Positions 930-36,632 of a DNA stretch of 38,624 nt are shown here, piece by piece (the first letter of the stretch is position 1; every line of letters begins with the position of its first letter). This DNA is from Rhodobacterales bacterium (lineage in GTDB: Bacteria; Pseudomonadota; Alphaproteobacteria; Rhodobacterales; Rhodobacteraceae), in contig PDRW01000009.1 in the NCBI GenBank assembly GCA_002746935.1, forward strand, positions 1 through 38,624. The letters are read 5' to 3'. Both the position numbers and the translations under genes were made by a program. The notes under the pieces were generated by a model. The model was not told the origin of the DNA. It worked only from the letters and a program-made list of their open reading frames with translations, and searched no databases.

Positions 930-1499
930 CTACTTGCGTTTGCCTTCGATGATGATGTTCAGTTCGACCGTGCTCGCGGCCGGGCCGAGGTTGTAGGTGG
1001 CGCCGAAATCGGCCGGGGTGATGGTCACCTTGCCCTCGAAACCGGCGCGATAGCCGCCCCAGGGATCCTCGCCTTCACCGATCTTCCTGACCATCACGTC
1101 GATCGGTTTGGTGATGCCGAACAGGGTCAGCTCGCCTTTCATCACACCGCCTTCGGCGTCGCCCTCGTATGCGGTGGATTTGAACGATGCGGTGGGGTAT
1201 TCGGCCACGTTCAGGTATTCGGCGTCGGCCAGGTGTTTGTTGCGCTCGGCGTGGTTGGTTTCAAGGCTTGCGGTGCTCACCTCGATATTGATCGACTGAT
1301 CCGCCGGGCTGCCTTCGCCGTCGAAGGTGAAGCTGCCCCCGGTCACGTCGAAATTGCCGATCACATAAGATACGCCCAGATGCGAGATCTTGAACTGGAC
1401 GAAGCTGTGGGTGTGGTCGATGTCATATTCGGCGGCGGAAAGCCCGGCGGTTGACAGGGCGATCGCGGTGGCGGTGGCGAGAGCGAGACGCTTCAGCAT
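930..1499 (-). CDS. YceI family periplasmic protein
   Basis: A 189-residue secreted protein with a clear signal peptide (MLKRLALATATAIALSTAGLSA, then A-E-Y). The mature part is the YceI lipocalin-like fold: it opens with YDIDHTHSFVQFKISHLGVS, has the central KSTAYEGDAEGG/GELTLFGITKPI region, and ends VELNIIIEGKRK. Family members bind polyisoprenoid-type lipids. The ATG at 1499 is preceded by AAGGGA and is preferred over an upstream in-frame start that would bury the signal peptide. It is the first gene of a two-gene unit with the b561 cytochrome, a pair often proposed to work in quinone-linked electron transfer. Four CCCCTGA sites lie 86-140 bases upstream of the start. Confidence 0.93.
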   Translation of the reverse strand: MLKRLALATATAIALSTAGLSAAEYDIDHTHSFVQFKISHLGVSYVIGNFDVTGGSFTFDGEGSPADQSINIEVSTASLETNHAERNKHLADAEYLNVAEYPTASFKSTAYEGDAEGGVMKGELTLFGITKPIDVMVRKIGEGEDPWGGYRAGFEGKVTITPADFGATYNLGPAASTVELNIIIEGKRK

Positions 1500-1584
1500 G
1501 GCATGTGTTCCCTTGTTGCGTTTCCTGTGACGGCCGGTCCGGTCTGGCAGCCGTGTCTTTAAGGAGAAACCTGACACAGGTTTG

Positions 1585-1639
1585 CCCCTGAGACGCTTCT
1601 CCCCTGATGAACAATGCCCCTGAAAAGCCGTACCCCTGA
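1585..1639. promoter_or_regulatory. Four CCCCTGA iterons at exact 16-bp spacing
   Basis: The heptamer CCCCTGA begins at 1585, 1601, 1617 and 1633, always 16 bases apart, while the nine bases between copies are unrelated. A related TTTGCCCCTG occurs at both 1581 and 1765. A conserved core with variable spacers at fixed period looks like a multi-site operator, not a decayed tandem duplication. It lies upstream of the minus-strand yceI-like gene, on which strand it reads TCAGGGG. The binding protein is unknown. Confidence 0.55.
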
Positions 1640-1968
1640 GAAACTGCGCGGGAAATGGGGCATGATGTTAAGGGGCGGACAGGGTGCGCCGCGCAAGCGG
1701 AATTGTGCCGGTCCGATGGGGCGGATGGGCGAGCGGCGGAGACATGCTTTCCCTCTGGTTACACTTTGCCCCTGGTCACAATTTCGATTTCACCCGATAC
1801 TCTCCAATAGCCTTCCCAATTGGCCCGATATCGGTCTGACGTTACCCGATTTGATCGCGCTTTTCAAGCGAGAGGCCTGCCTCGCCACGGCAATCGCCTG
1901 ACCGGCGGGAGTCCCAAATCGGGTGAGGTGTGAGGCCCTGCACTCCGGGCCATGTTTCGGAGGATGCA
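1640..1968. other. Intergenic stretch without a recognisable gene
   Basis: This stretch lies between the iterons and the ISAs1 remnant. Reading frames here have neither the third-position GC bias nor any family motif seen in the flanking genes. A second TTTGCCCCTG (1765-1774) is the only item linking it to the iteron block. No tRNA-like or strong hairpin structure was recognised. Confidence 0.4.
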
Positions 1969-2232
1969 ATGACGACTGTGCCTTTGCCGGACCATTTCCC
2001 GGCGTTCAAAGACCCGCGCCAGAGCCGGAAAACAGTCTGTCCGATCAGCGAAGTTCTTCTGATCGTGCTGGCCGGCGTGATGGCGAAGGCGGACGCGGCC
2101 ATTGCGCCGGGCACAAGCTGGCTTTTCTGCACCGGTTTCGGCCTTTTGCAAAAGGCATGCCCTCGCATGACATGGTCAACCGACAGAATAACGACTGTGC
2201 CCTTTGGCCAAAATATTCTGAATTCACGCTGA
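1969..2232 (+). pseudogene. ISAs1-family transposase, frameshifted N-terminal remnant
   Basis: After a good ribosome site (CGGAGG) the ATG at 1969 starts MTTVPLPDHFPAFKDPRQ, followed by KTVCPISEVLLIVLAGVMAK. This is the typical N-terminus of ISAs1/H-repeat transposases (DHF..L.DPRQ...YPL.EILLL). The matching continuation, KLAFLHRFRPFAKGMPSHD, is found in a different forward frame about 110-170 bases later, so at least one frameshift has occurred. The DDE catalytic core is absent. It is a dead fragment in a region of lower coding quality. Confidence 0.65.
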
Positions 2233-2916
2233 CGCTTCATGGCCTGGGCCAAATCCACTCCCGTCAGCTTTACCATGACCACGCTCAACGATAGCTACAT
2301 CATGCAGTAACTCGTCAGAGCCGGGTGCGCCATGGATAATGCGACAGGTATTGTGGCAGACAATGCGAAACTGCAGTTTCGCCGCGCTCATCGTGGTGGT
2401 TCTGTTGTTTGCGTCAAGGAACCGTATTCTTGGCAGCCCACCGAAATACAGGAGCAGGCACGGAAGCCGTTCAGATGACGGATTCAGCGGTGATGACAGC
2501 GGGTCGGGCTCAGAAGACTGACGGAGACGTGGCGCAAGTGAAGCCGTGGCCAGTCGAATGAAATCGGTTTTGACAGCTGGTGCGGTGATCCTGGGGCGCT
2601 GACAGGTTCGAAAGCCGAACAAGAAGGTGCTGATCTTTCTGTTGTGAATATTGTTCTTGAGCTCGGCAGTGGACTTCAGGACGCCAGTTCGCAAGATTCG
2701 GCTCTTGAAAAACCACAGTGCCCGGTAAACGGAGTGAAGTTCTGTCTACAGCTTCCGAAATCCCTGCTCGGGAAACGCTGACGACAACCGAAGCAATGCT
2801 TGTGGCGGAGGCTTTGAGCATTCACGGTGACAACGACCGGACACAGCACGAATTCGACAGCATCCTTCAGAAGTTTGATTTGAGCTTTTCCGATTCGAGG
2901 CGATACATAAAGCGTT
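2233..2916. other. Accessory DNA, decayed, no assignable gene
   Basis: Several short open frames occur but none has codon use like the neighbours or a recognisable motif. One plus-strand frame at 2332-2478 would encode 48 residues (MDNATGIVADNAKLQFRR...). It is internally coherent but matches nothing I recognise. The AT content is visibly higher than in the flanking core genes. Together with the ISAs1 remnant this suggests a graveyard of horizontally acquired DNA. Confidence 0.45.
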
Positions 2917-3090
2917 ATGCGAACCGGGCAGTTGCTGGAATATGCGGATTGGCAGACTCACCAGCCCTCAGTCGCGTTTCGCGAGTCCGAATACGACACC
3001 GGGTTCAGGAGGGTGTTTGACGAGCACGTCTTTGCCGCATATATACCGGTTCTTTTCTGGTCCGGTGATCTTGAACTGACATCGAAGTGA
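2917..3090 (+). CDS. Possible small protein or gene remnant, 57 residues
   Basis: An ATG at 2917 opens a frame of 57 residues ending in TGA at 3090. It contains the aromatic-rich C-terminus FDEHVFAAYIPVLFWSGDLE. Its composition (DEH, WQTHQPSVAFRESEYDTGF) looks more protein-like than the competing frames. There is no strong ribosome site, and no family is recognised. It may be the tail of a larger broken gene. It ends a few bases before the REP-like palindrome. Low confidence that it is expressed. Confidence 0.25.
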   Translation: MRTGQLLEYADWQTHQPSVAFRESEYDTGFRRVFDEHVFAAYIPVLFWSGDLELTSK

Positions 3091-3098
3091 ATGGTCAG

Positions 3099-3141
3099 AG
3101 CATGTCGCGCAAAAGTAAGCCCCGGCTTTGCGCGACATGCT
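3099..3141. repeat. REP-like palindrome (15-bp arms, 13-base loop)
   Basis: AGCATGTCGCGCAAA at 3099-3113 is exactly complementary to TTTGCGCGACATGCT at 3127-3141. It abuts the stop codon of the minus-strand Lrp gene, so it may also end that transcript. The core CATGTCGCGCAAAA resembles, from memory, dispersed palindromes of alphaproteobacteria (RIME-like), but copy number cannot be judged from one window. Confidence 0.65.
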
Positions 3142-3642
3142 TCAATTCTCCGCCTTCACCCATGCCTCGAGCACGTCGAAAGGCACGCCGGGTTCGTCCT
3201 TGGCGTCGCGGATCACCAGCGAGGTCTTCACGCTCGCCACATTTTCCGCCGCGGTCAGTTCTTCCGTCAGAAAGCTCTGGAAGGTCGAAAGATCGGGCGA
3301 GACGCATTTCAGAATGAAATCCACCTCACCGTTCAGCATGTGGCACTCGCGCACCAGCGGCCAGGCCCGGCAGCGGTCCTCGAAGGTCGACAGGTCCGAT
3401 TCGGCCTGGCTCACCAGCCCGACCATCACGAAAACCTGCACCTCGAAACCGAGTTTGCGCGCGTCCACGGTCGCATGATAGCCACGGATGAAGCCAAGCT
3501 GCTCCAGCGTGCGCACCCGGCGCAAACAGGGCGGCGCCGAGATTCCCACCCGCGTGGACAGCTCGACATTGGTCATGCGGCCGTCGGCCTGCAACTCGGC
3601 CAGAATCATCCGGTCGATCGGGTCGAGTTTGGTATGGGGCAT
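3142..3642 (-). CDS. Lrp/AsnC family transcriptional regulator
   Basis: A 166-residue feast/famine regulator. The N-terminal winged helix-turn-helix is clear: LDPIDRMILAELQADGRMTN, then ELSTRVGISAPPCLRRVRTLE. The C-terminal RAM (ligand-sensing) domain follows, including VRECHMLNGEVDFILKCV. Start chosen at 3642 because AGGAGGGAT lies directly upstream; an earlier in-frame start lacks such a site. It is transcribed away from trxB across a 214-base spacer. Members of this family usually bind the shared promoter region of the divergent gene, so trxB is a candidate target by position only. The ligand is unknown. Confidence 0.94.
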   Translation of the reverse strand: MPHTKLDPIDRMILAELQADGRMTNVELSTRVGISAPPCLRRVRTLEQLGFIRGYHATVDARKLGFEVQVFVMVGLVSQAESDLSTFEDRCRAWPLVRECHMLNGEVDFILKCVSPDLSTFQSFLTEELTAAENVASVKTSLVIRDAKDEPGVPFDVLEAWVKAEN

Positions 3643-3775
3643 GCGCGATCCCTCCTGGATTTGCCCGGACATTACGCAAGCGCCGCCGGGGGCGCAACAA
3701 TCTTTCGAAAATGCGCAAGATCATGACCCTTCGGAAACCCCAAAGCCCCGCGAGCCTGCCCAATCCCCGCCCTGA

Positions 3776-5238
<1,463 letters not shown>

Positions 5239-14857: not shown

Positions 14858-14983
14858 CGGATTGTCTCCGCTCTGGAATGTAACTGGCTTTAACATAGCA
14901 ACGCGGGGCCGGTCTTGTAAGGGCTGAACAGAGGATTTGCAAAGAAACCGGGGCGGGGTTCCCCCGATCGGGCGCGTCCTGGG

Positions 14984-29791: not shown

Positions 29792-29962
29792 ACCGGGGCC
29801 GCGCCTTACCCAACCGCCCCGGCAGGCAAGGCAAAGCTGCGATTTCGCGGCCGGACCCGTGCAAATTCGCGGTTTTGGCGGTTTTGTGCCTCCCCAAGCG
29901 ATTGAAATCGCGCTACTCTCCCCCCAAGTCAATGTAACATTCATTTACTTTCGTGAGGATCC

Positions 29963-30988
29963 ATGGCCACCAGTCTCGACACGCAAATCAAGGAAAGCCA
30001 GGCCCAGGTGGCCGAAGCGCAGGCAAAGATTTCAGAACTGACGACGCGGATCGAAACCGCGCGCTCCAGGGCGCTGTCGGGCGATGACATTTCCATCGAC
30101 ATCGAGAACGCCACCCTCGACGACGTTCATGCCCATACCGATCTGATGAACGCCAATATCGCCGAGCTCATCATGGGGCTCGACGATGTGACCGCCGGTT
30201 TCTCGAAGGATTTCGACGAGATGCGCACCCGCACCGGCTGGGAACGTTTCATCGGCCTGTTCTCGAAACACCGCGCCGAGGCCTTGCGTCAGGAGCGGAT
30301 GCGCAATGCCAATATCGACGACAAGCTTCAGGATCTGATCGGCAAGTCCGACACCATCGTGGCACTGTTGCAAAACCAGCTCGATCTGCTCAACGAGCAG
30401 AAATCCCGGGTGGAAAGCAACCTCACCCAGACACTGGACGACCGCGAGCTTGCCGTGGGCGAGCTGGAACGCATCCGCGCCGAAATCCTCGCCATGGACC
30501 CGAAGCTGATCGAGCTTGAGGGCAAGATCTCCGCCACCACCGATGCGGCGGCGCGCACAAAGCTGGAGACCGAACTGGCCGCGCTGAACGGGACATACAA
30601 CGATCTGGTGCAGCAGGAACAGGTGAAGCTCGCCCGCAGCCAGACGCTGGAGCGCTATATCGAGAAGGGCAAGACCTGGGTCGACAGCCTGCAAAATCAG
30701 GCCGCGACGCAGATGGTGCTGATCAACAAGCTCCAGACCGACACCAGACAGCGGGTGGTGCTGTATGACGCGCTGTCGAAATCGCTGAAGACCGCCCAGC
30801 AGCAGGATGTGGCGCACCGGATCAACGAGATCGGGGTGCAGACCGACAAGGAAGCCCAGGCCGCCATGGCCGCGATCGGCACCGCCACCAACCAGCGCAT
30901 GGCCGACATGATGGAGGCCCATGAGGAGCATATGGTCTTTGCCCGCGAGGTGCTGGAGGCCAAGGCCCGCGCCACCGAGCGCATCTGA
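29963..30988 (+). CDS. Long coiled-coil protein, TelA-like C-terminal pattern
   Basis: A 341-residue soluble, almost fully helical protein. Residues 1-60 and about 130-260 are rich in heptad-like K/E/L/A spacing. The later stretch QAATQMVLINKLQ, followed by ALSKSLKTAQQQ and AMAAIGTATNQRM, resembles in pattern the conserved C-terminal core of TelA/KlaA (toxic anion resistance) proteins, where QxxPQIRLIQ and later Q and TN positions occur; the match is by eye and weak. First of six co-directional genes; GTGAGG precedes its ATG. No signal peptide or membrane span. TelA-like proteins often sit near ATPases, which fits the context. Confidence 0.75.
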   Translation: MATSLDTQIKESQAQVAEAQAKISELTTRIETARSRALSGDDISIDIENATLDDVHAHTDLMNANIAELIMGLDDVTAGFSKDFDEMRTRTGWERFIGLFSKHRAEALRQERMRNANIDDKLQDLIGKSDTIVALLQNQLDLLNEQKSRVESNLTQTLDDRELAVGELERIRAEILAMDPKLIELEGKISATTDAAARTKLETELAALNGTYNDLVQQEQVKLARSQTLERYIEKGKTWVDSLQNQAATQMVLINKLQTDTRQRVVLYDALSKSLKTAQQQDVAHRINEIGVQTDKEAQAAMAAIGTATNQRMADMMEAHEEHMVFAREVLEAKARATERI

Positions 30989-30999
30989 CGGACCCGTTC

Positions 31000-32139
31000 A
31001 TGCCTGAAACCGACGCCCTCACCCGCGACCACATGGAGCTGGAAGACACCCGCGTCACCCGGCGCTACTTCGCCATGTTCGAGGCGATCACCGGGCATCT
31101 CGCCCGGGTGGCGGGGCAGTTCGAGGCCGAAGGCAGCCTCACCCGCGCGGAGGTGAACCTGCTGGCGCGCTACATGATCGCTCTGGGCTATACCTTCCGG
31201 GCGCTGGCCAACAAGTACCACATGGCCGGCCGGGCCGAGGGGCTTGGCCCCGGCAAGCTTACCTTCGACCGCGAGGAATCGGGCTTTCCGGTCCATGCGG
31301 AACTGTTGCAGATGGCCTCCGACGCCGCCCAGGCCGGGCGCCACATGAAGGGCATGCCGGGGCAGGATGAGCTCAGGCGCCAGATGGTCGAGGAGATCGT
31401 CGGCAAGTTGCAGGTGCCGACCCGGCTGCAATATGCGATGAGCCAGCGGCTCTATTACGAGGAGCTCGCCCGGGGCGAGATCTTCTGGCCGCAGATGCAC
31501 CCGGACGTGGTCTGGCTCGGCAATGACGGCGAGGGGCGCGATCTGCGGCGGCGCTATCTGGTGCATTGGGCGGTCTATGACAGCAGCCTCAACATCCCCA
31601 CCATCTATCTGATGGACCTCGAGGATACCGGCCGCACCGCGCTGCCCAAGGACGAACGCCGCTGGCCGGAGGCACAGGCGCATCTGATGGCGCAGGCGGT
31701 GGCGGGGCTGAAGCTGGTGACCATCGCCGGCGGCTTCGACCGCGATTTCGACGATCTCCACCCCAAACGGCTGCGCCGGTTTCATATCGGCCCGATGTAT
31801 TCTTCCGCCTTCACCCGCCAGACCGGCCCCCTGAAGGCGGTGCTTGAGGAGGCCCATGCGTCGGTGGGCGAGGACTGGGCGCTGGCCTGGACCATGGAGG
31901 ATCTGGTGAGCGAACGGGTGGAGCTGGAGAAATCCGGCTGGTTCGGGTCGGTGGAACGCGAGATCTTTTCGCTCGACCCGTTCGACGGCGCCGCCGACAG
32001 CGGTCGCACGCGGATGGACCGCGCCATCATCCTGCCGCAGCGTCCGTTTCAGGTGCTCGCCGAGAAAAACCCGCCGGGCTTTCGCGAGGTGCGGAAATTT
32101 GTCGTGAGCCCGGGGGGGCGGGTGTTGTCCTATCGGTAG
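31000..32139 (+). CDS. Conserved-looking unknown protein of the AAA cluster
   Basis: A 379-residue soluble protein with no family I recognise. It has a helical N-terminal half (VTRRYFAMFEAITGHLARV, then a long charged region) and a mixed C-terminal half with FDRDFDDLHPKRLRRFHIG and a late VRKFVVSPGGRVLSYR. No signal peptide, membrane span, P-loop or cysteine motif. It starts 11 bases after the coiled-coil gene and precedes the ATPase gene, with the same codon bias, so it is a real gene and probably a subunit or adaptor of the same system. Ribosome site weak; an in-frame ATG at 31033 is an alternative. Confidence 0.8.
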   Translation: MPETDALTRDHMELEDTRVTRRYFAMFEAITGHLARVAGQFEAEGSLTRAEVNLLARYMIALGYTFRALANKYHMAGRAEGLGPGKLTFDREESGFPVHAELLQMASDAAQAGRHMKGMPGQDELRRQMVEEIVGKLQVPTRLQYAMSQRLYYEELARGEIFWPQMHPDVVWLGNDGEGRDLRRRYLVHWAVYDSSLNIPTIYLMDLEDTGRTALPKDERRWPEAQAHLMAQAVAGLKLVTIAGGFDRDFDDLHPKRLRRFHIGPMYSSAFTRQTGPLKAVLEEAHASVGEDWALAWTMEDLVSERVELEKSGWFGSVEREIFSLDPFDGAADSGRTRMDRAIILPQRPFQVLAEKNPPGFREVRKFVVSPGGRVLSYR

Positions 32140-32210
32140 ATGCCGCCGGAGCCGGGGCGCACCCCCCCGGATTTCTGAAGGTAGTTCGGGAACAAGGAAG
32201 AGGATGAGGG

Positions 32211-34160
32211 ATGTCATTGCCTGCCGACCAGATGGAGCTTCGCGAAGACGAGATCCGGGCGCATTACCCGGCCGCGGCGGCGATGCTCGAAGGCTTCGAC
32301 CACAACCCGCGGATCGCGAAGCCGAAGGCGGAGGCTGTGGCGGGGGTGGAGCGGCAGGAGCGCTCGCCCGGGATCGGGTCGCGCCGGCGGTTCCGCTCGA
32401 CCACGCCGGGGCTGGTGACGCGTTCCACCGCGCGGCCCGAGGGCGTGCGGCTGATCGAACGGATCGAGGAGACCGATGGCGGCGATCCGATCCTGTCGCC
32501 GGGGCAGGCGACGGTGCTGCACAGCCTGCGCCGGGCGCTGGCGATCGCCTTGGCGGTAGCCGAGGGTTACGGCGAGCAGACCGGGCTTGTCGAACTCAAG
32601 AAGCACAATCTCGAAAAGGCGCTGGCGGCCGAGCGGCAGGCGGCCTTCGCCGAGCTTCTGGCGGGCGAGGCGCTGGTGGCGCTGTCGGTCTTTGCCAATA
32701 CCACCGCCTTTCTGCTGACCCCCCATGCGGGCGCGGTTTCGGTGGAGGTGGGGAGCGTCGAGGAGCTGCTGACCGACAATGCCGCGATGGCGCTGCACGG
32801 GGCGCTGTGGGAACTCGACCAGAAGATCGCGCTGTTTGCCAGTGACGAGCCGCGGCTGGTGGCGGTGGTGACGGGTTTTGCCGAACAACTCATGCAGCGG
32901 GTGGCGCTGCGGGCCCAGAATGCGCCCGGGCTCGAGGCTTTCACGGGCGTGCATTACCGCGTCGAGGCCGACGATCTCACGATCTCGGGCTTCACCCCCA
33001 GCCGCAAGGCACGCGGCTCGACCCTCACCATGAGTTTCAAGAAGCCGCATGAGGTGGTCGGCAACCATATCGCCAAATATCAGGCGATGAAGCTCTCGAA
33101 GATGCTGATGGCCTATGATTTCGAGCGCAAGCTGAACCCGTTTGCCGAGCTTGGCGGCTTCATCTTCACCTTCATGGGCGACGGCAAGCCCGGCACCGGC
33201 AAGACCACCCTGATCCGGATGATGGCCGGGCTGATCGCGGGCTATTGCGAGAACGCGGGCTATCCGTTCCGCTATCAGAACCTCTCGACCGAAAGCATCG
33301 ACAGCTATCAGGGCAAGTCGGCGCAGAATGCCAAGGCTTTCATCAACAACGTGCTCGACCCGGGCGTCATCGGGTTCGGCACCATCGACGATATCGACCA
33401 GCTCGCCGGCAAACGCGGCGACCGGCAGTCTTCGGCGGGGCAACTCGAGATCACCGCGGTGCTGATGGAGAGTTTTGCCGGGGCGAATACGGTGGTGCGC
33501 GGCAATTGCACCTTCGGGATGTTTTCCAACTACCCGGAGAATGTCGACGACGCGCTGCGGCAACGGGCGGGCGCGCGGTTCCTTGTCGACGGGCCGCAGA
33601 CCCGGGAGGATTACATCGACATCCTCGCGCTGCTGATGGGGCGCAATCACGACATCCCGCTCGGCAAACACGAGCTTTACGCCGCGCAGGAGATCAAACG
33701 CGCGGTGGCGGCGAGCTTCGAGGCCCATTCGCGGCCGCAGGAGGCGGGGCTGGAGCGGGTCTTCGAGCGGGTGTCGCGCGATCTCGGCAAGCTCGACACC
33801 ATCGCCAAGCTCGGCACCTATCTGAAAGGCATCCAGGAGGCCGACGCGCGTTTCACCGGCCGGGCGATCAAGAACATCACCGATGCGGTGAAGGTGCGGG
33901 CGATGGATTTCGAACTGCCCGACGAATGGATGGAAGAGCCGGAGCTGTTTCTGCTGCGCCCCTATGACGAGAAGCGCGGCATGATCGAGGAGCTGCGCAA
34001 GCCGATCACGGTGGAGATGGTGGTGCAGGAGATCAACCGCTACGCCGACAGCGAATTCCGCTATGCCGACAAGTCCGACGAAGCGGCCATCGCGCGGATG
34101 GTGCGCGATTTCGGGCTGACGGAAGAGGCGAAGCGGCGGTATCTGGAGGGGAAGGGGTGA
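32211..34160 (+). CDS. AAA+ ATPase of the six-gene cluster
   Basis: A 649-residue protein. Residues 1-310 are an unrecognised N-terminal region, helical in parts (SLRRALAIALAVAEGYGEQ). The AAA+ module follows: Walker A G325-KPGTGKT332, Walker B-type FGTID393-DID, sensor-1 asparagine in GMFSNYPENVDDALRQR, with RQRAGAR supplying arginine-finger candidates. A C-terminal ~170 residues (after about 480) look helical. The Walker B aspartates are DD, not the usual DE. No membrane span. Flanked by unknown and DUF6638-like genes. Expected to remodel or move a partner using ATP; the partner is probably encoded next to it. Confidence 0.85.
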   Translation: MSLPADQMELREDEIRAHYPAAAAMLEGFDHNPRIAKPKAEAVAGVERQERSPGIGSRRRFRSTTPGLVTRSTARPEGVRLIERIEETDGGDPILSPGQATVLHSLRRALAIALAVAEGYGEQTGLVELKKHNLEKALAAERQAAFAELLAGEALVALSVFANTTAFLLTPHAGAVSVEVGSVEELLTDNAAMALHGALWELDQKIALFASDEPRLVAVVTGFAEQLMQRVALRAQNAPGLEAFTGVHYRVEADDLTISGFTPSRKARGSTLTMSFKKPHEVVGNHIAKYQAMKLSKMLMAYDFERKLNPFAELGGFIFTFMGDGKPGTGKTTLIRMMAGLIAGYCENAGYPFRYQNLSTESIDSYQGKSAQNAKAFINNVLDPGVIGFGTIDDIDQLAGKRGDRQSSAGQLEITAVLMESFAGANTVVRGNCTFGMFSNYPENVDDALRQRAGARFLVDGPQTREDYIDILALLMGRNHDIPLGKHELYAAQEIKRAVAASFEAHSRPQEAGLERVFERVSRDLGKLDTIAKLGTYLKGIQEADARFTGRAIKNITDAVKVRAMDFELPDEWMEEPELFLLRPYDEKRGMIEELRKPITVEMVVQEINRYADSEFRYADKSDEAAIARMVRDFGLTEEAKRRYLEGKG

Positions 34161-34280
34161 GCGCGGACCGAAGGGGCCTGAGAGGATGCGAGGAATGATC
34201 ATGCCCGGACCACACGGGACCAGACTGCCCCCGGCGAGCGCACCTTCCGCGCGGAGCAAGACACAACGAGGGCCAACAGC

Positions 34281-35657
34281 ATGAAACGCCTCATCCAACG
34301 CGGGTTGATGTTCGGCAATCTGGTCCGCATCGACAGCCCGGCGCTCGTCGGGCGCTACAACCGTGCGCTCGAACGGCTGACCGGCCACCGCACGGCGCTC
34401 GACGACTTTCACATCGACATTTCGGGCTATTCCTACGAGATCGGCGAGGAGCTTGGCGACCATCTCTATCTCAACCCCGGCGGGGTCAACCGGATGTTCA
34501 TCATCCTCACCGTCGACCAGAAACGCGCGCCGCTGCTCAACGCGCAATTCTCCACCTCCCGCGGGATCCTGCAACAATTCATCGCCGACAACGAGGCCAA
34601 ACTCTTTGCCCTCACCGCGCAGGACGCGGTGGCCGGTGAGCTCGACAATTCGGTGTTCGAGGCCGAGGCCCCGGCGCGGCTGTTCGACATCCGCAAGATC
34701 ACCGTGGTCGCCGACACCACCCAGAGCCATGTGGCCAATGCCCGCGCGCTGGCCGACAAGATCGAGACCTTCCAGACCGAACCCGACGCCTGGTATGACG
34801 ACGTGCTGATCGCCGAGATGATCGAACTCGCCCGGACCACCGGCGACGTCACCCGCCAGCCGCTCGACCTCGCCCGCCCGACCTATGAACAGGGCAATTT
34901 CTGGACCGCGCATTTCGGCGGCCTCTACATCTTCCGCGATGCCCCCTTCCCCGCCGCGATCTCGGTGCGTCCGCGCGACGAGCTGGGGCCGATGCCGGTC
35001 GAGAGTTTCGACCTCACCATGCGCAACGCGATCGCCGCCTTCCTCGACACCAACGATCTGGTGGAACCGGTGATCCAGGCGCGCGGCGTCGACGGCGCGG
35101 CGATCCTGCGCCAGAAGATGGATTTCATCCTCGTCGATGCCGCCGCCAGCCTCGGGGTGAAGATCGACGGGTTCGACTCGCGCAGCCTCCACCGCCTCGC
35201 CCAGCGTCTCGGCCGCCGCCTGCCGGAGGAGTTTTCCAAGCTCGGCGCGCTGGTCCGCTGGGCGCTCAACGGCGGCAAATGGCCCCGGATCGCCTCCGAC
35301 AACCCGGCCTATTTCTACACCCTGCGCGCGCGCGCCGATCACCCCGACCGCGACCTGATCAACCAGCTTCTGGCGGAACTGACCCCGCTCGATGTCCGCC
35401 AGCTGTTCATCACCCACAAGCCCGCGTTCTATGCCGCCTACCGCCAGTGGCCGGAGGCGAAAAAGGAATATGTCGCCGAATTCCTGCACCGCGATTATGC
35501 CGCCAACAAGGCCGGCGCACGCGATGCGCTGTTCGGCGGCGCGGCGCAGGAAGCTGCGGTCAGATCGCCCTGGGACAGGGGGGACACCCGCACCTCCCGC
35601 GCCGGGCGTGATATTGTCGATCTTGTCGGCCCCTGGGGGGCGGTACTCGGGAGATAA
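34281..35657 (+). CDS. DUF6638-like protein
   Basis: A 458-residue soluble protein. I recall its N-terminal MKRLIQRGLMFGNLVRIDSP and HIDISGYSYEIGEELGD as the pattern of DUF6638 proteins found in Rhodobacterales, but cannot confirm this without a search. No catalytic motif is evident. The C-terminus (from about 425) is basic and low in complexity, ending WGAVLGR. GAGGG precedes the ATG. The stop is three bases from the next gene, so it is coupled to the small membrane protein. It always-by-position belongs to the ATPase operon here. Confidence 0.75.
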   Translation: MKRLIQRGLMFGNLVRIDSPALVGRYNRALERLTGHRTALDDFHIDISGYSYEIGEELGDHLYLNPGGVNRMFIILTVDQKRAPLLNAQFSTSRGILQQFIADNEAKLFALTAQDAVAGELDNSVFEAEAPARLFDIRKITVVADTTQSHVANARALADKIETFQTEPDAWYDDVLIAEMIELARTTGDVTRQPLDLARPTYEQGNFWTAHFGGLYIFRDAPFPAAISVRPRDELGPMPVESFDLTMRNAIAAFLDTNDLVEPVIQARGVDGAAILRQKMDFILVDAAASLGVKIDGFDSRSLHRLAQRLGRRLPEEFSKLGALVRWALNGGKWPRIASDNPAYFYTLRARADHPDRDLINQLLAELTPLDVRQLFITHKPAFYAAYRQWPEAKKEYVAEFLHRDYAANKAGARDALFGGAAQEAAVRSPWDRGDTRTSRAGRDIVDLVGPWGAVLGR

Positions 35658-35660
35658 GCC

Positions 35661-35939
35661 ATGATCGGTGCCATTCGTCTGATCTTCTTCGGTTTTCTGG
35701 CGCTCAGCGTCGTCTATTTCGCGGTCTCGGTGTATTCGCGCTCGATCCGGCGCGAAAAGCTCGAAGACTGGTGGGCGGAAGAACACCCGGGCGATGATGA
35801 CAGCCCGGAACGCGATGCCTATATCGAACAGGGCATGATCGACTACCAGAACGGGCTCAGGCCCAAGCTGATCTGGCTGGTCTATATCATTCCGGCCATC
35901 GCGGTCGCGGCGGTCATGTATTTCGTCAACGCCACCTGA
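35661..35939 (+). CDS. Small two-span membrane protein
   Basis: A 92-residue protein with two hydrophobic segments: residues about 4-26 (AIRLIFFGFLALSVVYFAVSV) at the N-terminus and about 70-88 (WLVYIIPAIAVAAVMYFV) at the C-terminus. The loop between is strongly charged (RREKLEDWWAEEHPGDDD). It could be a small membrane adaptor. The start has GGGAGA upstream and lies three bases after the previous stop. No family recognised. Confidence 0.8.
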   Translation: MIGAIRLIFFGFLALSVVYFAVSVYSRSIRREKLEDWWAEEHPGDDDSPERDAYIEQGMIDYQNGLRPKLIWLVYIIPAIAVAAVMYFVNAT

Positions 35940-35954
35940 GCCCCGGGAGACCCC

Positions 35955-36632
35955 ATGCGCCTCGTCCGAAACACCCTTCTCGCCATACTCGTCTTTGCCG
36001 CGCTGGTGCTGGCCCATTACACCCTGCCGCAGCACGACGTGGTGCGGGTGGTCAACACCTATCAGGAACGCCAGGATTTCGACGACTGGACCCGGATCTT
36101 CTGGTCGAAGCCGGACGATCTGTCGGACGTGCTGATGAACCGCGATGTGCAGTTCATCCAGACGGTGAAGAAGAAGACCTTCCTGTTCGGCTTCATCCAG
36201 CGCGATGCCGAAGAGGTGATGGTCTACCGCAACGAAGACACCGGCTGGCGCTGGCCACCCTATTTCAAGTTCGACACCGCCTCGCTCCAGACCGAGGCCG
36301 ACGATCTGCGCTCCACCCCGGAAGCGCCGAAATGGGCGGTGATGACGCATTACGGCTGGCGCGCCGAGCTGTTTTCGGCCTTTCCCAACGCGGTGGCGAT
36401 CCGGCCGGTGGACGGTCCCAACCCGACCATCATCCCGTGGTTCAACATCGGCTTCTTCGCGGTGCTGATCGTGCTTTTGCTGTTCATCCGCGCGATGTGG
36501 CTGCAATTCCGCGAACGCACCATCGACCCGGCGCTGGAAGACACCCGCGACGCCTGGGAACGGGTCGACGAAGAGCTCGACGCGCGCCGCGGCAAGCTCT
36601 CGCGCTGGTGGAAAAGCTGGACTGGAGGGTAA
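35955..36632 (+). CDS. DUF1523 family membrane protein
   Basis: A 225-residue protein with an N-terminal span (LLAILVFAALVLAHYTLP), a periplasm-like middle beginning with HDVVRVVNTYQERQ, and a second span (FNIGFFAVLIVLLLFIRAMW) followed by a charged cytoplasmic-type tail. The HYTLPQ and VVRVVNT patterns are typical of DUF1523, a Rhodobacterales family of unknown function. GGGAGA precedes the ATG. Last gene of the six-gene cluster. With the small two-span protein it would give the system a membrane part. Confidence 0.85.
   Translation: MRLVRNTLLAILVFAALVLAHYTLPQHDVVRVVNTYQERQDFDDWTRIFWSKPDDLSDVLMNRDVQFIQTVKKKTFLFGFIQRDAEEVMVYRNEDTGWRWPPYFKFDTASLQTEADDLRSTPEAPKWAVMTHYGWRAELFSAFPNAVAIRPVDGPNPTIIPWFNIGFFAVLIVLLLFIRAMWLQFRERTIDPALEDTRDAWERVDEELDARRGKLSRWWKSWTGG

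Follow-up and report, generated by a model that had tools for sequence, protein, structure and literature searches.

A conserved four-gene AAA+ ATPase core with an exchangeable membrane partner in Rhodobacterales and beyond

What do six consecutive genes of a Rhodobacterales bacterium, none of which has a named function, encode, and do all six belong together? The genes are located in a stretch of 38,624 nucleotides (contig PDRW01000009.1 of the draft assembly GCA_002746935.1, from a genome that is 83.9% complete), which we refer to as the window; the six open reading frames (ORFs) occupy positions 29963-36632 of its + strand and are called genes A to F, in order. The initial annotation of the window had described them as a single six-gene unit around an AAA+ ATPase. 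Our comparison with related and distant genomes confirms that the order of the six genes is conserved, but the unit itself is narrower: it consists of a four-gene cytosolic core, A-B-C-D, and of a membrane partner that is exchanged between lineages, and it occurs beyond the Rhodobacterales.

The positions and the intergenic gaps (11, 71, 120, 3 and 15 bases) that had been reported for the six genes are correct, and all six ORFs are open. Gene A (29963..30988) encodes a soluble coiled-coil protein of 341 residues, gene B (31000..32139) a protein of 379 residues, gene C (32211..34160) an AAA+ ATPase of 649 residues, gene D (34281..35657) a DUF6638 protein of 458 residues, gene E (35661..35939) a small protein of 92 residues with two predicted membrane spans, and gene F (35955..36632) a DUF1523 protein of 225 residues with a predicted span near each end (residues 7-25 and 165-183). 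Membrane spans have been predicted by hydropathy, which finds none in A, B and D and a marginal hydrophobic stretch in C (residues 144-162). The kinds of protein that had been proposed are borne out by Pfam: D exceeds the cut-off of DUF6638 (PF20343; 747.7 bits against 27, E 5.3e-225), F that of DUF1523 (PF07509; 210.3 bits against 23, E 1.8e-62) and C that of AAA (PF00004; 47.4 bits against 21.2, E 3.3e-12, residues 325-458), with the first half of C matching no Pfam family. A, B and E have no Pfam match over the curated cut-off, E having none even at E <= 1, and none of the six proteins passes the cut-off of any NCBIfam model. In PHROGs, C has AAA-type matches, while A and F are matched weakly; in PADLOC, C is matched by its AAA core, and A (LmuB, 0.0018) and F have weak matches of a coiled-coil or chance-level kind, with no match for B, D or E. 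Searches of solved structures give nothing below E 0.2 for A or B and nothing at E <= 5 for D. The proposed host-like codon use is fairly well reflected in the G+C content at third codon positions, which is 0.84, 0.87, 0.86, 0.86, 0.77 and 0.86 for A to F, E being the lowest; six other ORFs sampled from the window have values of 0.85-0.89 in five cases and 0.73 in one.

The conservation of the gene order has been followed in two samples, where codes with L denote loci, codes with G genomes, codes with f families and codes with g genera. The first sample comprises 60 related genomes, 36 of the window's family (Rhodobacteraceae, judging by named relatives) and 24 others, searched with C; the gene is present in 20 of them, all from the window's family (20/36 against 0/24). 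In 15 of the 18 stretches that were fetched around C, A to F are all found in order (in one of these, both A and C come as two fragments); of the remaining three, L039 has no detectable E, L038 reaches the edge of its contig after C, and L043 contains a partial C, with no D within 5.6 kb downstream. The second sample has been obtained by searching named genomes with a profile of D, which yielded at least 477 relatives among the 595 stretches listed; the best 80 loci were kept, and since they were picked by D, genomes that have A-B-C without D are not represented. The six genes are complete, in the same order and on one strand, in 68 of the 80 loci; because the same order recurs so often, it is not a product of chance. 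The full cluster is present, for example, in Defluviimonas denitrificans DSM 18921 (L097). Ten of the other 12 loci are cut by contig ends (including L076, where 1.2 kb upstream of D is without C), and two, L119 and L138, have D-E-F without A-B-C: in L138, the genome does contain A-B-C, but on a different contig, while in L119, a gene that is polA-like by eye lies upstream of D and C is not found in the 2.5-Mb draft. The genes are thus apart in 2/80 loci, not in most. Of the flanking genes, one upstream gene family is common to 37/62 loci and one downstream family to 22/67; these families are metabolic, as judged by eye. Within the cluster, the junctions of the 68 complete loci differ in their tolerance of additional sequence: at least 300 bases separate A from B in 23 loci, B from C in 2 and C from D in 59, with no such distance at D|E or E|F.

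Outside the window's family, A-B-C-D is found in order in Vibrio, Sinorhizobium and Shinella; L154, which comes from an alphaproteobacterium of a different family, has the arrangement A-B-C-D-F. Homologues of B with as little as 26-28% identity occupy the same place in both Vibrio and Sinorhizobium, and in Vibrio parahaemolyticus and V. vulnificus, A-D is located on records of 0.88-0.93 Mb, with mfd directly after D. In a wider set of 398 Pseudomonadota genomes, searched with C at E <= 1e-40, the gene is present in 26: in 14 of the 27 genomes of the window's family, in 10 of family f160 (rhizobial, as we infer from named relatives), in one of f165 and in one of f189, a family of another class than the window's. 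All 13 further stretches keep the order A-B-C-D; these are the ten from f160, the f189 genome, which has all six genes, the f165 genome, which has A-B-C-D-F, and a last one from the window's family. DUF6638 itself exceeds its cut-off in 5/289 genomes of the window's class, namely G246 and four genomes that belong to the window's family. The module is not confined to the Rhodobacterales, as it also occurs in rhizobia, on large Vibrio plasmids and in another class. The Vibrio plasmid records (L156 and L158) also carry secA, SIMPL-domain and LysM genes near A-D and mfd, an unusually chromosome-like content. Separately, record CP090106.1 (L157), labelled as pSymB of S. meliloti, is probably a mislabelled chromosome, because it measures 3.7 Mb and the neighbouring accession, CP090105.1 (1.66 Mb), is also on record.

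What follows the core differs between lineages. In all ten f160 stretches, E and F are not detected, and the gene after D encodes a relative of a Sinorhizobium protein that matches Pfam DUF2333 (6.2e-16). In Vibrio, the two genes upstream of A encode no membrane span and no membrane protein gene adjoins A-D, so any membrane partner has to lie outside the core there.

The four core genes are also inherited together, as is seen in the pairwise protein distances of a set of 24 genomes and of a within-family subset of 16 genomes (120 pairs); rpoB was not found in the incomplete genome of the window, which is therefore not part of this comparison. Over the 24 genomes, rho is 0.92-0.93 between the distances of any two of the core proteins A-D and 0.68-0.73 between these and rpoB; within the family, A-D correlate with rpoB at 0.75-0.82 and F at 0.47. 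Two block transfers, which include D and leave rpoB behind, are clear. The rpoB of G364, a genome of another class, is at most 60% identical to all others in the set, while its A, C, D and F are 74%, 75%, 64% and 51% identical to those of one genome of the window's family; the rpoB of G562 is 83% identical to that of f160, while its A, C and D are 75%, 72% and 55% identical to those of the window's family; to those of f160, the values are about 41%, 51-52% and 29-30%. The presence of the module varies twice within a genus (g24 and g256).

The 68 complete loci are closely related and differ little in their distances, and here the coefficients drop to 0.49-0.56 among A, B and C, 0.34-0.40 between D and A-B-C, and 0.15-0.40 between A, B, C and D, E, F; some recombination at the C|D junction is likely in this set. 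The lower values for D, together with the breaks at C|D in L138 and L119 and with the concentration of insertions at this same junction, would fit two separate units, A-B-C on one side and D with its membrane partner on the other, that are mere neighbours at a recombination hot spot. We consider this quite unlikely, as the correlation of D with A, B and C is 0.93 in the 24 genomes and 0.82-0.89 within the family, and as D moves with them in the whole-block transfers and is adjacent to C, with an insert or with none, from Vibrio to rhizobia.

The variable position between C and D, which the initial annotation had overlooked, occupies positions 34161..34280 in the window and is empty there, because its 120 bases are too short for the ORFs that fill it elsewhere; it is shorter than 200 bases in 7/68 loci. 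Of the 60 loci whose C|D gap reaches 240 bases, 54 have an ORF of 75 codons or longer that terminates at the start of D, compared with about 8% at random positions of the gap; in most loci D starts with ATGA, so that the 4-base overlap with the slot ORF is forced by the sequence, while the presence of a long ORF is not. Clustering of the 54 slot ORFs gives 27 groups, of which 18 have one member, and about six of the ORFs appear spurious by eye, so that the true number of families is smaller. DUF559 has been found in 6/43 slot ORFs that were scanned as a set, Sinorhizobium contributing one of the six, and in one ORF that was scanned singly, HNH in 1/43, Mrr in one scanned singly, and eight slot ORFs form a family of two-span proteins. 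Genes of the DUF559 type occupy the slot in 6/10 stretches of f160 and in Sinorhizobium, and in the split Frigidibacter locus such a gene is found after C. In five loci, diverged and displaced copies of the D start (its initial 28-91 bases) are located upstream of the slot insert (L116:7896-8828, L129:8984-9263, L132:9127-9188, L134:8430-8520 and L146:9247-9274); the copies end at base 60-62 in three of the five loci, L116 contains at least four of them, and a DUF559-type ORF is present in four of the five. The pattern points to what looks like a mobile cassette that has entered the beginning of D repeatedly and restored it. The A|B junction is a second, smaller variable position, with mostly short ORFs that are membrane-protein-like (e.g. 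L077:6152-6361, L079:5087-5305 and L100:5900-6253).

A slot that is usually filled, by a long ORF that ends at the start of D far more often than at random and that belongs to diverse clusters, among them nucleases (DUF559, HNH and Mrr) and two-span proteins, is better accounted for by a conflict system, directed against phages or other elements, than by a remodelling machine. In such a system, A-D would be a chassis for ATP-dependent sensing or switching, and the slot gene an interchangeable effector that is made together with D; the patchy presence in the window's family (20/36 and 14/27 genomes) is in line with this, and NTPase systems with variable effectors provide a published precedent, namely the MoxR-vWA ternary conflict systems, where an AAA+ ATPase chassis is described next to variable genes (Kaur et al. 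2020, PMC7159879). We nevertheless hold this explanation to be unlikely. PADLOC recognises none of A-F as a defence protein and has a matching model for 2/43 slot ORFs; A-D follow rpoB within the family; the neighbouring genes are metabolic; the slot can be empty, as in the window; and the DUF559 genes and displaced D starts are equally compatible with selfish insertion. Viral contigs are also nearly devoid of relatives, the profile scans with C and with D having returned none and that with A a single one, at a contig edge; these scans do not support a phage origin of the module. An improbable account, too, in our estimation, is that of a horizontally transferable AAA+ chassis, A-B-C-D, with unrelated genes (for nucleases, two-span membrane proteins and others) loaded repeatedly between C and the DUF6638 gene and made together with D, and with a membrane partner exchanged by lineage, that is absent from the catalogues searched. 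As regards the comparison with MoxR-type operons that had been recommended, the likeness to the MoxR-vWA systems lies in the ATPase chassis that adjoins variable genes; unlike in those systems, no MoxR or vWA family is found among the Pfam matches of A-F at E <= 1, and C fits the classical AAA model.

The AAA domain of C also exceeds the PF00004 cut-off in Vibrio and Sinorhizobium, and no named orthologue of C has been found. The sole match of C among solved structures is the ATPase domain of an i-AAA protease (5.5e-4). Its PADLOC match to TRIP13 (2.4e-7) recalls the TRIP13/Pch2-HORMA modules; unlike in these modules, the match is limited to the AAA region (residues 324-501) and no HORMA protein is found among A-F. 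The usual form of the Walker B motif is of the IDE or IDEID type. The window's C has IDDID at this position: aspartates D393 and D394 are invariant across 10 diverse sequences, and the catalytic glutamate is absent, replaced by aspartate D394 in 10/10 aligned sequences.

Gene A is the most conserved of the six, with a mean distance of 0.20 over the 68 loci, followed by C (0.24), D (0.35), B (0.36), F (0.45) and E (0.50). Its C-terminal tail, RRF..I/V..KH..N.Y, is kept in 66/68 loci, with a one-residue variant in one locus and a disrupted end in another, and is recognisable in Vibrio, Sinorhizobium and L154. The A protein of the window, a circumstance that had also been overlooked, ends, in the draft assembly, about 18 residues short of that of a same-genus relative (L026) and is without this tail; about 40 bases are missing at the end of the gene (30980-31000), as counted on the two sequences.

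The initial annotation had recommended a comparison with TerY/TelA stress systems; neither Pfam nor profile comparison supports a link with TelA. The window's A and four diverse A proteins have no match to TelA (PF05816) at E <= 1, nor to Snf7 or PspA (PspA_IM30) in Pfam at the same threshold, and profile comparison with 24 TelA proteins gives a probability below 3%: what is matched, at 2.4% and 1.6%, is a short local W-E-R/K-x-x-G stretch. A true TelA is encoded on another contig of the window's genome. That A would be a distant helical member of the TelA or PspA/Snf7 groups, and the cluster a variant envelope-stress or ESCRT-like system, is consistent with the helix-rich, soluble nature of A, with the short TelA match and with the PspA or Snf7 genes that are described next to AAA+ ATPase genes (PMC11237479); given the results above, we deem it very unlikely. 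The cluster does share features with these systems: like Vps4-ESCRT-III (CdvC-CdvB) and the PspA/Snf7 operons, it places an AAA-domain ATPase beside a long, soluble, helical protein and membrane proteins, the helical protein ending in a conserved tail by which the ATPase might take hold of it, and like TelA in the Ter systems, A is long, helical and cytosolic. It differs from Vps4 and PspA systems in that no counterpart has been found for B and D, and the likeness of C to Vps4 has been compared on the AAA domain alone.

The explanation that we favour, tentatively and at somewhat less than even confidence, is that A-F encode one AAA+ remodelling machine. C would be its motor and A its main client or scaffold: C would grip A via the conserved C-terminal tail and so disassemble, recycle or rearrange assemblies of A, B and D would be fixed cytosolic partners (adaptors or regulators), and an inner-membrane protein specific to each lineage (E and F here, the DUF2333 protein in rhizobia) would tether the machine to the membrane. 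This mechanism is supported by the conserved order, the co-inheritance of A-D, the block transfers, the conservation of A and of its tail, the AAA domain of C and the exchange of the membrane partner. The physical contacts, the direction of the remodelling, the tether and any role in the envelope, where envelope stress or membrane remodelling had been proposed as possible functions, are inferred, and no stress regulator has been tied to the cluster in the analyses made.

Several observations weigh against a single remodelling machine. D-E-F is separate from A-B-C in two of the 80 loci, a partial C stands without a nearby D in L043, and over the 68 loci, the correlations within A-B-C exceed those of A, B and C with D, E and F; one common transcript is not assured, because the A|B and C|D junctions are prone to insertion. 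In Vibrio, there is no membrane protein gene next to A-D. The window's own A is without the tail, and tail-dependent loading in this genome may be lost or work otherwise. Lastly, C may be a slow ATPase, because an aspartate occupies the position of the Walker B glutamate, which leaves the assignment to the AAA fold unaffected.

Upstream of A, at positions 29933..29949 of the window, an imperfect palindrome (TGTAAAT-N3-ATTTACA, with 3/14 mismatches) has been found, which is a probable operator and possibly private to the cluster. With up to 4/14 mismatches, it is present upstream of A in 46/68 regions (the window and 67 loci), against 12/340 mononucleotide shuffles, an excess that is partly circular, as the consensus was read by eye from these same regions; at the same threshold, it is present upstream of B, C, D and F in 1, 0, 1 and 4 of the 68 regions. 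A global regulon is not supported, with 24 exact sites in 8 genomes compared with 32 for the reversed control. Another ORF of the window has an exact TGTWA-N7-TWACA palindrome at its end (14879-14895), which is probably due to chance. Elsewhere in the window, positions 1001-4000 have a G+C content of 0.57-0.58, compared with 0.62-0.71 in the remaining 2-kb windows.

The cluster, conserved and without a named function as had been proposed, appears to have escaped description: no account of it has been found in the literature on DUF6638/PF20343, DUF1523 and DUF2333, in a search whose coverage does not extend to most subscription journals, and in the annotated records of Vibrio and Sinorhizobium, the parts of the module are named hypothetical, ATP-binding or DUF6638. 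Yet roughly one in two genomes sampled from the window's family (20/36 and 14/27) carries the module, as does a set of rhizobial genomes. Its four-gene core offers a defined target, in which structurally uncharacterised protein families surround a single ATPase, with an obvious client, a tail motif and slot contents open to comparison. Should the slot genes be effectors, the module would be a new modular conflict system; otherwise, it would still be an uncharacterised ATP-driven machine.

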